The notes below the pieces were generated by a model. That model saw only the letters and a program-made list of their open reading frames with translations. It was not told where the DNA came from and searched no databases. From Powellomyces hirtus (lineage: Eukaryota > Chytridiomycota > Chytridiomycetes > Spizellomycetales > Powellomycetaceae), in NCBI GenBank assembly GCA_025526995.1, contig JAHLKG010000016.1:310001-374000 (forward strand): a DNA stretch of 64,000 nucleotides. Direction: 5' to 3'. Positions within the stretch are counted from its first letter, which is position 1, and each line of letters opens with the position of its first letter. A program made the position numbers and the translations under genes. This document shows, in pieces, positions 4,922 to 30,239 of the stretch.

Positions 4922-6065
4922 ATGTCTCGGCCAGAGCACACGGCACCGCCGGAAATTGTAAGTGATTCGATAAGCGATAGATGGTGCAATGGGAGAAGTC
5001 TTGAGAGCGAGGATGTTTATTTTTGATTCTCGCTCAAATTTAGTTCTACAATGAGGACGAGGCATCAAAATACACGAACAAGTATGTGCATTCAGCTTCA
5101 CATAGACCTTGAGTACCCTTCGATGATGAAGCCTAACATCATAAGCTCTTTAGCTCCCGAATTATATCTATTCAGAATGAAATGTCTTACCGAGCCCTCG
5201 AGCTTCTCGCCCTGCCCGAAGACGAAGTAGCTTTTGTTCTGGACATCGGATGCGGATCGGGACTTAGTGGAGAGGTTTTAGAGGAGGAAGGACACTTTTG
5301 GGTGGGAATGGACATCAGCGATTCCATGCTGGAGGTCGCCAAAGAGCGTGAAGTGGATGGCGATCTATTCCTTCAAGATATTGGACAAGGGATGGGATTC
5401 CGGGCAGGAACTTTTGATGGAGCCATCAGGTTTGTTTAAAACATGACCGTGGACGGACAAAAAGGATTACGAGCTAATTGCTTCATTTGTGGAACATCAG
5501 CATCTCTGTTCTGCAATGGCTTTGCAATGCCGACAAAGCTGTCAACAATCCACGATCGCGTCTAAAGCGATTTTTCAGCACCCTCTACTCGTCTCTCGCG
5601 AGAGGCGCCCGCGCAGTCTTCCAGTTCTACCCGGAGAACTCAGAGCAGATTGAAATGATTATATCCAGCGCAATGAAGGCCGGTTTCACTGGTGGACTTG
5701 TTGTCGACTTCCCGAACTCCTCAAAAGCCAAAAAGTACTACCTGTGTCTGTTTGCTGGTTACAAAGACAGCGCAGGGCAAAGCCCAGAGCTCCCGAAGGG
5801 TCTTGGCGATGGAGACGAATCACAGGTCACTTATGCATCGAAGCGGTTAGTGGAACTTGCTTTGGTGCGATCTTTATGGGAAGCTACTGAGGGGCTGATC
5901 AAATTTTTTGACAGTGTACGGGAACGCCGGAAAGGACCTGTGAACCGCAAGCCAGTGAAGGACAAAAAATGGGTGCAGCACAAGAAGGAGCTCAACAGGT
6001 CCAGGGGCAAGGAGACTCCGGCAGATTCGAAATATACCGCCCGCAAAAGAAGAACACAATTCTAG
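4922..6065 (+). CDS. BUD23: 18S rRNA (guanine-N7)-methyltransferase BUD23
   Basis: SAM-dependent enzyme that makes m7G near the 3' end of 18S rRNA and supports pre-40S export, acting with TRM112. Exons 4922-4957, 5044-5081, 5154-5429, 5501-5845, 5915-6065; 281 aa. The protein starts MSRPEHTAPPEI then FYNEDEASKYTN, the family hallmark. The SAM motif is VLDIGCGSGLSGEVLEEEG, followed by VGMDISDSMLEVA and ISISVLQWLCNAD. The basic tail KPVKDKKWVQHKKELNRSRG ends in KYTARKRRTQF, as in other BUD23 proteins. The last intron is 69 nt and open in frame, so retaining it would insert 23 residues rather than truncate. Confidence 0.95.
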
Positions 6066-27480: not shown

Positions 27481-28032
27481 TATCCGTCCATTGCCGCTTT
27501 CCCGTTGTCCTTCCTTATGCAGTATTTCTACTTTGGTCACTGCCCTGTCAAAGTGCATATCGGAAGCTGTTTGTGTCAATGTGGCTTGGCCATCACGGCA
27601 CCACGTCCCAGGAACCAGGTAAGCAGATCACGTGGACGTGGCACGTGAATTAGATCAAGGATGCGGGTACTGAGCAGCTGTGCCACCAGCGACAGCCAAT
27701 GGAAATCCGCCACCGTCCCTCAAAAAGCAACAATGAAAGATGATGTCTTGGCTATCCTGCGTGGCTGTGGGCCAATCGAATTTATGATTCACAGGAACAG
27801 TCGATTTGGAACACCTGAAATCGTTGATAACCCGCTCCCCAGCTCACTTCTGCCCTCCGCCTCAAACCAAGAAGTTCCTTCACCCCCCTCAAACTTCACA
27901 GCAAATATCACAGATATCGCCAGAGGTCCTCTCCCCAGATCCCACCCTCTCTTCCACTTGCGCTGACTGCTTCCTGGTGGGCGCCTCAACACTCGACTCG
28001 ACCGACCGACCGTAACAACCCGCCTCGATCAA
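27481..28032 (+). promoter_or_regulatory. promoter and 5' leader of the HAC1-like gene
   Basis: 552 nt divergent region. At 27628-27648 three ACGT-core sites lie in 21 nt (TCACGTGG, GACGTGGC, GCACGTGA), the core bound by HAC1/XBP1-type bZIP factors. At 27696-27714 CCAAT, nine bases and CCACC resemble the mammalian ERSE (CCAAT-N9-CCACG) with one mismatch. Another CCAAT is at 27772. The leader before ATG 28033 is pyrimidine-rich. Motif matches are by eye only. Confidence 0.45.
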
Positions 28033-29141
28033 ATGTCGCTTCCCTATTCACGCTTTGTACAGCCTATCACACAAGCCCCTTGGCTGACGAACTGCACCAC
28101 TGGTGCGTCCCCCACCAGCGCTGACTCGGTTTCGCCCACGTCAGCAACTTTTGACGCTGGCTTCAACCTCTGGGGTCCTGGCAACATTGCTTTCCCGGAT
28201 CTGGACGATTTTACGTCACTGCTGGCCTCTGTCGCCGGAGATGAACCCACACCGTTGGCAAACTCTTTCCTCACCACCCCATCGACAATCACAGGCACCG
28301 ATGCCACTATAACTCCTTTGCCGCCATCCCCGCTCTCTCTAGACGAGCTGGAGACACTGTTTGCAGACAATCTGGACGATGTCTCCATGCCAAGCCCTAT
28401 TGGTACCAATTTGCAAAACCAGAACGAGGATTTCGTCTTTGCAGATCTTCTGAACAGTCAAATCAACGAAACCTATATACCCCTTCCTTCTTTTGTCGAG
28501 TCGAAATCGGTAAAACCCATCCTGCCAGTGGATAGCACACTCAAGACCACGAACGGACAACCGTTGTCGCCGATCTCTTCTGGATCTCACGACGAAGCAT
28601 CCGCTAGCGAGGTCGCGCAGGCCAAAGAACAAGGCAAGAGGCGAAAACTGACCCCAGAAGAGAAAGAAAAGCGAGCGAAAGAGCGAGCGATCCGTAATCG
28701 ACAAGCCGCGCAAGACTCGCGCGACAAAAAACGCAAATACGTAGATGACTTGGAAGCAACCAACGCAGAACTGACAATGCGACTTGAGACAACCGAACAA
28801 ACGAACATGACGCTTGCAGCCCGTCTCGAACAAATGGCAGCCCAGCTGGCCGCCTTCCGCAAACGATTCAAAATGACCGGTGAAGACACACCAGATACCC
28901 TCACGCTTGGCGCACTATCATCCGACCCTGCAGTGGTCAGACAACGCGACAATCTCGATAACATCCAGCACGGATGTACGTCAAGCAAGAAGAGGGAATC
29001 TGGTCGTTTTGTGATCCCGTTGACGAGTTCCACATCAAGCTCGAACCCGTCGACGCCACAAAGCCCTTCGACATTGAAGAATTCCTCGATCTCGACTCAG
29101 GCTCATCCGCTGGCAACCCTGGTGGTGACGGCTGTCTTTAA
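28033..29141 (+). CDS. bZIP transcription factor, HAC1/XBP1-like, spliced form
   Basis: Candidate master regulator of the unfolded protein response. Residues 1-205 are Ser/Thr/Pro-rich with acidic hydrophobic patches. The bZIP lies at about 205-275: basic region KEKRAKERAIRNRQAAQDSR, with Asn222, Ala225, Ala226 and Arg230 as in HAC1/XBP1 (NRxAAQxSR), then leucine-zipper heptads. Exons 28033-28930 and 28969-29141 flank a 38-nt segment bounded by two hairpins (separate entry). Joining them gives 1071 nt, 356 aa, with a tail reading VKQEEGIWSFCDPVDEF, IKLEPVD and FDIEEFLDLDSG. Without removal the frame runs to 29421 (462 aa) with an unrelated tail. The bZIP call is certain; HAC1 orthology is inferred from basic-region residues and the intron. 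Confidence 0.8.
28931..28968 (+). other. predicted IRE1-type unconventional intron (38 nt)
   Basis: 5' hairpin: stem GACC (28924-28927) pairs with GGTC (28935-28938) around a 7-nt loop CTGCAGT (28928-28934), matching the IRE1 rule CNG|CNGN exactly. 3' hairpin: stem ACATC (28961-28965) pairs with GATGT (28973-28977) around a 7-nt loop CAGCACG (28966-28972), which keeps C at -3 and G at -1 but has C rather than G at +3. Cutting both loops after the third base removes 38 nt, starting CA and ending AG, so it is not GT-AG. It shifts the frame by two onto an acidic tail. Pairing and frame are read from sequence; use by IRE1 is inferred. Confidence 0.72.
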
Positions 29142-29662
29142 TTCCCTGATCTACTTGACCACGGTATCAAAAGCGCTGTTCCCACTTCCCAGCACGGTGA
29201 CCTTGAGCTCCGGATTGAGTTATTCTGTTGAAGGTGTCAGCACCATCGCCACGGCGAATCACACCACGGAAAAAGAATCGGTTGGGCACATAAAAAATTC
29301 GCCTCCGCCGAGATCTTCGATAGGGCTGGGCCTCCTGCCGCGGCTGGACCATTACGTTGCGGCAAAATCATGTTCAAGACTAGAGCGCTTCCCAGTATTG
29401 CAACGGATATGGAGCGTTTAGCTTCTGCCATCGGTACCTCATCATCATCATTTACATAGTTTTACTTGCCACGTTGGCTCCCTTTTCGTCAAACTGTCCT
29501 TCACCTGTACATATATTCCTCATCAATATCAGTTTGACCGACTTAAAACTCTCTCGCTGCACAACCTTCTGACGACAAAGACTCATATGTATAAAACCGT
29601 GTCCGGTTGGTACGTACAAAAGAAGGGTTACCGCGGGGAGATTTGCAGTATGATCAGGATTT

Positions 29663-30239
29663 TTACTGGAATCCACCCCGGCCGCCACCACCACGACCAC
29701 CCGGAGGTCCCTGCGGCGGACCCCCAGCCCTTCCTCTTCCTCGTCTGCTAGCCTGCGCTCTGGCAACGGTTGCTTTGCCTCTTCCCAACCCAATTCCTCT
29801 CCCTTTACTCCCTCCCGGCCCCATCCGTTTGAACATTGGAGCGTTCTTGAGCATGTCGGGCACAATGAAGAATCTGATTTGCGATCCGCGCACGTATACT
29901 TGCTCGAGTTGGCTTTGGCGTCCGTCTCGTTGGGTCACGAGAATGTCTTTCAGTTGGACGTTCATGTTGTCCTCCGCATCCAGTAGTTTTCCACGGTAAA
30001 TCGCTCCCGACTTCAGTTCCAGGGTAATGATGTGGCCTTCTGCCTCATGTAAAAGCTGGATAACAAAACAAAAAACATACAAGCAGTGGTTCAGAGCGTT
30101 GTAAGTTGGCAGCAAAGACAAGAATCACCGTGCTTTAGCCCTCTAGAGATCACGCTGGTCTCTCAGTTGGATTCAGAGCAGATGCATTCCTAAGTGCCCC
30201 GCGAATGATACACACCTTTATGGGTACTCCGATAGACAT
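29663..30239 (-). CDS. SMD3: small nuclear ribonucleoprotein Sm D3
   Basis: Core Sm-ring protein of U1, U2, U4 and U5 snRNPs. Exons 30216-30239 (MSIGVPIK) and 29663-30055; 417 nt, 138 aa. The Sm fold shows [40 protein letters not shown], then [20 protein letters not shown]. The tail is Arg/Gly-rich ([20 protein letters not shown] and RGGGGRGG), a likely arginine-methylation substrate. The intron is 160 nt, long for this window. A spliceosome gene next to an unconventionally spliced gene is probably coincidence. Confidence 0.96.

Follow-up and report, generated by a model that had tools for sequence, protein, structure and literature searches.

A stretch of 64,000 nucleotides of Powellomyces DNA (hereafter, the window) contains a fungal HAC1/XBP1-like gene whose unspliced isoform appears to have been selected and to follow an animal or plant design. 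Taken as a whole, the gene is probably the chytrid counterpart of HAC1/XBP1, with an unspliced (U) protein that would dock at the endoplasmic reticulum (ER) membrane, splicing by IRE1 and TRL1, and a spliced (S) protein ending in an acidic tail. IRE1-type splicing of a bZIP mRNA, as proposed in a preliminary description of the window, is likely in view of the paired hairpins, the switch to an acidic tail, the IRE1 and TRL1 genes and the sites encoded in relatives; the novelty claimed for a 38-nt intron is weak, and the unspliced frame appears to be more than the leftover it had been taken for.

Such mRNAs reach IRE1 by different routes—via the nascent chain in animals, via a membrane precursor in plants, and via the UTR and an untranslated mRNA in yeast. 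Metazoan XBP1 contains a 26-nt IRE1 intron, and its unspliced product, XBP1u, carries the HR2 region and a C-terminal arrest peptide, while plant bZIP60 has a 23-nt IRE1 intron and a transmembrane U form. To our knowledge, a membrane-seeking tail encoded by the uncut message is known from animals and plants, and not from the yeast model. No chytrid HAC1/XBP1 was found among the best-ranked matches of a literature search covering titles and abstract openings.

The source species is Powellomyces hirtus or a very near relative, the best match of the protein being a hypothetical protein of P. hirtus with 98% identity (its UniRef name, X-box-binding protein 1, is a label and not a test); the previous assignment to a chytrid, i.e., a zoosporic fungus, was right. 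The features of the gene are as follows, with an arrow marking the proposed cut in each loop:

28033 to 29421, plus strand: unspliced (U) reading frame of a bZIP transcription factor, 462 aa (from protein searches and relatives).
28645 to 28905, plus strand: bZIP region, comprising basic region and zipper (Pfam bZIP_1, bZIP_2).
28924 to 28938, plus strand: 5' splice-site hairpin, stem GACC/GGTC (28924-28927/28935-28938), loop CTG↓CAGT (28928-28934), read directly.
28931 to 28968, plus strand: 38-nt segment proposed for excision by IRE1, bounded by cuts after loop base 3 in both hairpins (38 mod 3 = 2).
28961 to 28977, plus strand: 3' splice-site hairpin, stem ACATC/GATGT (28961-28965/28973-28977), loop CAG↓CACG (28966-28972), read directly.
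28969 to 29141, plus strand: acidic S-frame tail of 57 residues including the junction codon, stop at 29139-29141 (from frame reading and a recoding test).
29110 to 29166, plus strand: U-frame hydrophobic segment (residues 360-378) that overlaps the S-frame end (KD 1.82 over 19 residues).
29142 to 29421, plus strand: U-only coding stretch, residues 371-462 (54/86 and 51/85 identity to two Geranomyces species).
29326 to 29418, plus strand: conserved C-terminal peptide of U, residues 432-462, a candidate arrest/targeting peptide (from identity among relatives).

The bZIP domain lies upstream of the proposed intron, with Pfam scores of 22.6 bits for bZIP_1 (E 1.2e-4; curated cut-off 27.6) and 20.8 bits for bZIP_2 (curated cut-off 22.3), neither of which reaches its threshold; for the relatives P0004-P0008, Pfam bZIP matches are precomputed. 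Searched against the 29.3-Mb assembly, this region matches its own locus only. The relatives comprise the NCBI model (P0001), Geranomyces michiganensis and G. variabilis (P0002-P0003), Borealophlyctis (P0005), two Rhizophlyctis rosea database records from different contigs and different genomes (P0007, P0008) and, among P0004-P0008, Spizellomyces and Phlyctochytrium. This list is a lower bound, the two wider protein searches having scored 7996 and 7995 candidates only; with the Spizellomyces tail as a query, only itself and P0006 were found among 551 candidates. A scan of viral contigs for relatives gave 77 pattern matches, of which 0 were confirmed, and Rfam returned no match in 28000-29600 at E values up to 5. 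Convergent with the bZIP gene is a minus-strand gene at 29663-30239 of the window, presumably encoding an Sm-type protein and containing a 160-nt GT-AG intron with the donor GTGTGT.

The unspliced frame, formerly regarded as a mere leftover, is conserved up to its end in seven species from six genera. Compared with G. variabilis, identity amounts to 78/95 in the bZIP region, drops to 14/38 in the linker and rises again to 27/30 in the C-terminal peptide; the last value also applies to G. michiganensis, and the peptide shares 16, 12, 12, 16 and 16 of 31 residues with P0004-P0008, respectively. Annotated tails follow the U frame fully in P0001-P0004, P0006 and P0007, and partly in P0005 and P0008. 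A homologue of the hydrophobic segment is present in all relatives save the P0008 model and reaches the highest KD value of the whole protein in P0001-P0005 and P0007 (1.62-1.82), whereas in P0006 an N-terminal stretch outscores it. Within the window, the segment is confined to U, with a top KD window of 1.82 for the U protein versus 0.67 for the S protein. The conserved peptide lies beyond it, the distance from segment to C-terminus being 84 residues in the window and 71-88 residues across the window, P0001-P0005 and P0007. The U protein also has L450 and W460, spaced by ten, with the W kept in seven of eight relatives (not in P0005). A Drosophila study describes a metazoan pausing peptide with a conserved L and W, ten apart in human numbering (PMC4138184); we attach little weight to this match.

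Because 29142-29421 is coding in U only and conserved, and no yeast-type pairing between intron and 5'UTR was found (longest perfect complement 5 nt versus a shuffled mean of 6.15, with the 5'UTR assumed at 27701-28032 and perfect pairing only), the mRNA is probably translated as U at rest. The U protein is probably made and selected, and the selection was probably for ER docking, in the manner of XBP1u or bZIP60u. For vertebrate XBP1, the overlapping frames have been used to argue for a working unspliced protein (Nekrutenko and He 2006, as cited in PMC7580959), and the citing paper makes a case for hacA mRNA having functions in its unspliced state in Aspergillus (PMC7580959).

How U would act can be read in more than one way, and the preferred explanation spans two docking modes, a paused nascent chain and a membrane precursor. 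The latter, in which IRE1 splices the mRNA of a stable, bZIP60u-like ER membrane precursor and splicing removes the anchor, is a possible but rather unlikely sub-form. In hydrophobicity, the segment matches the IRE1 membrane helix encoded in this genome (KD 1.82 and 1.77, respectively) and slightly exceeds human HR2 (1.62), in line with an anchor; bZIP60s, correspondingly, is described as devoid of the bZIP60u transmembrane domain (PMC12781897; PMC4891664). A mere anchor, however, would not need the C-terminal peptide, which lies beyond the segment and is so much better conserved than the linker. Distinctly less probable is that the U frame was kept for a regulator, i.e., an unstable protein that, like XBP1u, inhibits S or takes part in its degradation, and not for an mRNA docker. 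U does retain the bZIP region together with a C-terminus of its own, and pXBP1(U) is reported to target pXBP1(S) for degradation (PMC5636610), but a regulatory role alone leaves the conserved hydrophobic segment unexplained.

For the twin hairpins, direct reading agrees with what had been described. Both have a 7-nt loop with G↓C at the identical loop position, and 38 nt lie between the equivalent cut sites; the 5' loop CTGCAGT fits the consensus CNG↓CNGN in full, the 3' loop CAGCACG fits save at +3, where C replaces G, and the segment begins with CA and ends with AG. When the stems are required to be 4 bp or longer, with one loop of the form CNG↓CNGN and the other CNG↓C at a spacing of 15-100 nt, the pair is unique in the window on both strands, and dinucleotide shuffling of the gene produced such a pair once in 2000 trials. 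The residues encoded at the 5' hairpin, SDPA(A/V)V, recur in six of eight relatives (P0001-P0004, P0006 and P0007), and those at the 3' hairpin, IQHGCT, are identical (6/6) in both G. michiganensis and G. variabilis. Of the hairpins listed as possible 3' sites across this half of the gene, only the one with its loop at 28966 yields the acidic tail.

Because its 3' loop is without the consensus G at +3, the gene is filed as a variant of the HAC1/XBP1 class of IRE1-spliced bZIP mRNAs and not as a strict member. The missing G is a real departure from the IRE1 consensus. It may be common to two genera, Powellomyces and Geranomyces, because both Geranomyces species encode QHG and, if the cut follows Q, QH (with CAY for H) rules out G at +3. 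Yeast Ire1 is reported to require CNG↓(C/A)NGN, and a relaxed mutant still CNG↓NNGN on HAC1 loops, while G↓C alone suffices for that mutant on another substrate (PMC8104961).

Loss of the segment moves translation into a frame that ends after a 57-residue tail with 13 D+E and 4 K+R, as predicted beforehand. The evidence for this S frame is its composition and not its length: in 10,000 synonymous recodings of the U frame with the codon usage of this gene, its length was reached 2247 times (2317 times with codon permutation) and is unremarkable, whereas its 13 acidic residues compare with 5.4 +/- 1.9 expected and were matched in 0/10,000 recodings; D+E minus K+R, amounting to 9, was matched in 3/10,000. 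The S-type tails of P0005 (Borealophlyctis) and P0008 (R. rosea) resemble each other (score 80, 0/2000 shuffles), which argues that the S frame is conserved between these genera. No similarity of the Powellomyces S tail was detectable to P0008 (1061/2000 shuffles equally good) or to P0005 (527/2000), and a looser test agreed (90/400 and 135/400, respectively). The U frames of P0002, P0003 and P0004 did score against the Powellomyces S tail (0/400 each); these scores are not counted as proof, because similar U proteins by themselves make the shifted frame compatible.

R. rosea offers a view of both frames in homologous DNA. P0007 carries AVASQQRISSS and, later, STQAHPLAFIVATAILHSM in the U frame, and P0008 carries GRIPAADIIK and, later, DSSSPTGLHRRDGDPALD in the S frame. 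Upon back-translation of the two tails (P0007 from residue 261, P0008 from residue 256) in runs of ten residues, a single DNA can encode 22 runs in the spliced frame—overlapping and not independent—compared with 0 in the other frame; in 60 shuffles the count averaged 0.08 and never exceeded 3. One of the 22 joins unrelated positions and is attributed to chance. A tolerant score gave 82 for this frame, against a shuffled maximum of 36 (0/400); for the third frame, 308/400 shuffles did as well as the real pair. The back-translation indicates that the P0007 annotation followed U and the P0008 annotation S in homologous DNA, and that in R. rosea the hydrophobic segment and the acidic stretch occupy common nucleotides. 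The first motif has only two DNA solutions, both reading ATCC[CAGCAGC]GGAT, a 3' hairpin with full consensus (CAG↓CAGC), and both also containing GGTC, which corresponds to the right-hand stem strand of the 5' hairpin. No solution was obtained when a longer R. rosea stretch was decoded in one piece, the models being from different genomes that need not match throughout. As a side observation, the P0005 and P0008 models pass from a spliced-type to an unspliced-type frame, probably via predicted introns, and hence mix isoforms.

These data bear on two explanations that dispense with IRE1. That this is a bZIP gene of the ordinary kind, with a single long frame and hairpins due to chance, is very improbable: the 3' loop is off consensus, the minimum-energy form from RNAfold adds pairs within both heptaloops, and the second frame is of no unusual length, yet the shuffles rarely produce such a pair, the S tail is acidic, and the S frame is annotated as coding in Rhizophlyctis P0008, where it matches the U frame of P0007 and resembles Borealophlyctis P0005. 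Scarcely credible is an ordinary spliceosomal micro-intron of 36 nt from GT at 28933 to AG at 28968, for in spite of its GT/AG ends and a TAAC at 28959-28962 just upstream of the AG, its donor GTGGTC is a misfit and its length far too short compared with five spliceosomal introns placed by eye (65, 68, 71, 66 and 160 nt; donors GTAAG, GTGTG and GTAAA), its excision keeps the frame, and NCBI model P0001 leaves it unspliced. The statement that the spliceosome would not define the segment is, hence, correct for the exact ends named and too broad in view of this GT...AG inside it.

The intron length deserves less emphasis than it was given. Published fungal IRE1 introns are reported to span 19 to 848 nt (PMC6222058), with individual values of 19 nt in C. 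albicans, 20 nt in A. fumigatus, 56 nt in Cryptococcus HXL1 and 252 nt in S. cerevisiae (PMC3154848), so that 38 nt appears unremarkable and can hardly count as a new size. The comparison with related chytrids that had been called for shows the encoded sites to be kept, and the lengths, deduced from U-frame proteins only and presuming that the codon positions of the sites are unchanged, would be 38 nt in the window, P0001 and G. variabilis, 41 nt in G. michiganensis, and 17 nt in Spizellomyces, Phlyctochytrium and Rhizophlyctis P0007. Each of these implied lengths, in the window and six relatives, is 2 mod 3. An intron of 17 nt would be the shortest among the published lengths that we met.

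The enzymes to be expected, IRE1 and a ligase, had been named as something to look for, and the genome encodes both IRE1 and the fungal ligase TRL1. The first exon of IRE1 specifies a probable signal peptide and a membrane helix and is followed by kinase exons and the RNase domain; the luminal part yields only a sub-threshold Pfam PQQ_2 match, while the best solved relatives of the RNase domain are IRE1 chains, with the yeast ones first. At the positions that we take to correspond to yeast K992 and Y1059, counted from the catalytic residues, the alignment places D and K. In a study of Ire1 specificity, D/E and K/R at these positions are linked to a relaxed, RIDD-capable Ire1, human IRE1 included (PMC8104961). 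The RNase domain is split between its RNK and KHHY motifs by a 66-nt in-frame GT-AG intron (L008, about 4982-5047), and a message retaining it would stay open. TRL1 is represented by adjacent exons that encode its ligase, kinase and CPD domains. The genome also encodes an RtcB-family protein in one open frame of 592 aa (L010:2096-3874, minus strand, contig C9; Pfam RtcB 178.5 bits). TRL1 would be the preferred ligase, because all four NCBIfam matches of the RtcB-family protein are under their cut-offs and the assembly yielded no archease.

Among known systems, the gene is like metazoan XBP1 in its twin heptaloop hairpins after the bZIP region, its overlapping frames with a switch to a putatively activating tail, and the confinement of a hydrophobic segment and a conserved C-terminal peptide to the unspliced protein; it differs in the length of 38 nt and in the presence of the fungal ligase TRL1. 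The distance from segment to end, 84 residues, also differs from the 53 in the human tail used for comparison. Common ancestry with human HR2 is unsupported: 2497/20,000 shuffles aligned as well with the human sequence used (PDB constructs match only its residues 65-92 of 93, inexactly, with HR2 outside), and when compared with the chytrid block, the genome's own IRE1 signal peptide outscored HR2. In human XBP1u, HR2 and the pausing site are reported to lie about 52 residues apart (PMC6624018). With plant bZIP60, compared by description, the gene would share a membrane-type segment in the U form that splicing removes; it differs in the conserved peptide past the segment, the fungal setting and the intron length. 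Likewise by description, it shares with ascomycete HAC1/hacA the kingdom, IRE1, TRL1 and a bZIP region upstream of the sites, and departs from it in that no 5'UTR-intron pairing was found and in a U frame ending in a conserved hydrophobic and C-terminal module. Basidiomycete HXL1 from Cryptococcus, also compared by description, is similar in having CAG at the borders and an intermediate length, though a different one; 5'UTR pairing reportedly went undetected by its authors (PMC3154848).

According to the preferred reading, intact mRNA would, in the absence of stress, be translated into the U protein of 462 aa; through its hydrophobic segment and C-terminal peptide, either this protein or the complex of mRNA and ribosome would be retained at the ER membrane. 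Upon ER stress, IRE1 would cut both hairpins after loop base 3 and TRL1 would join the exons; the loss of 38 nt would shift the frame, so that the bZIP region gains an acidic, presumably activating tail and loses the hydrophobic segment.

Going beyond the single gene, we tentatively propose, as an idea with somewhat less than an even chance, that the chytrid HAC1/XBP1 mRNA is brought to IRE1 by its own nascent U protein, with one DNA encoding both membrane segment and acidic tail; that the animal mode of delivery would have operated in early fungi, the yeast mode—an untranslated mRNA and 3'UTR docking—being a later replacement; and that the 17-nt introns would be the shortest known, in three other chytrid genera. 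The consensus-breaking 3' loop provides a natural test of IRE1 strictness, and with a conserved, translated-looking U frame in a chytrid, the question of which mode of delivery is older in fungi becomes directly testable outside animals and plants.
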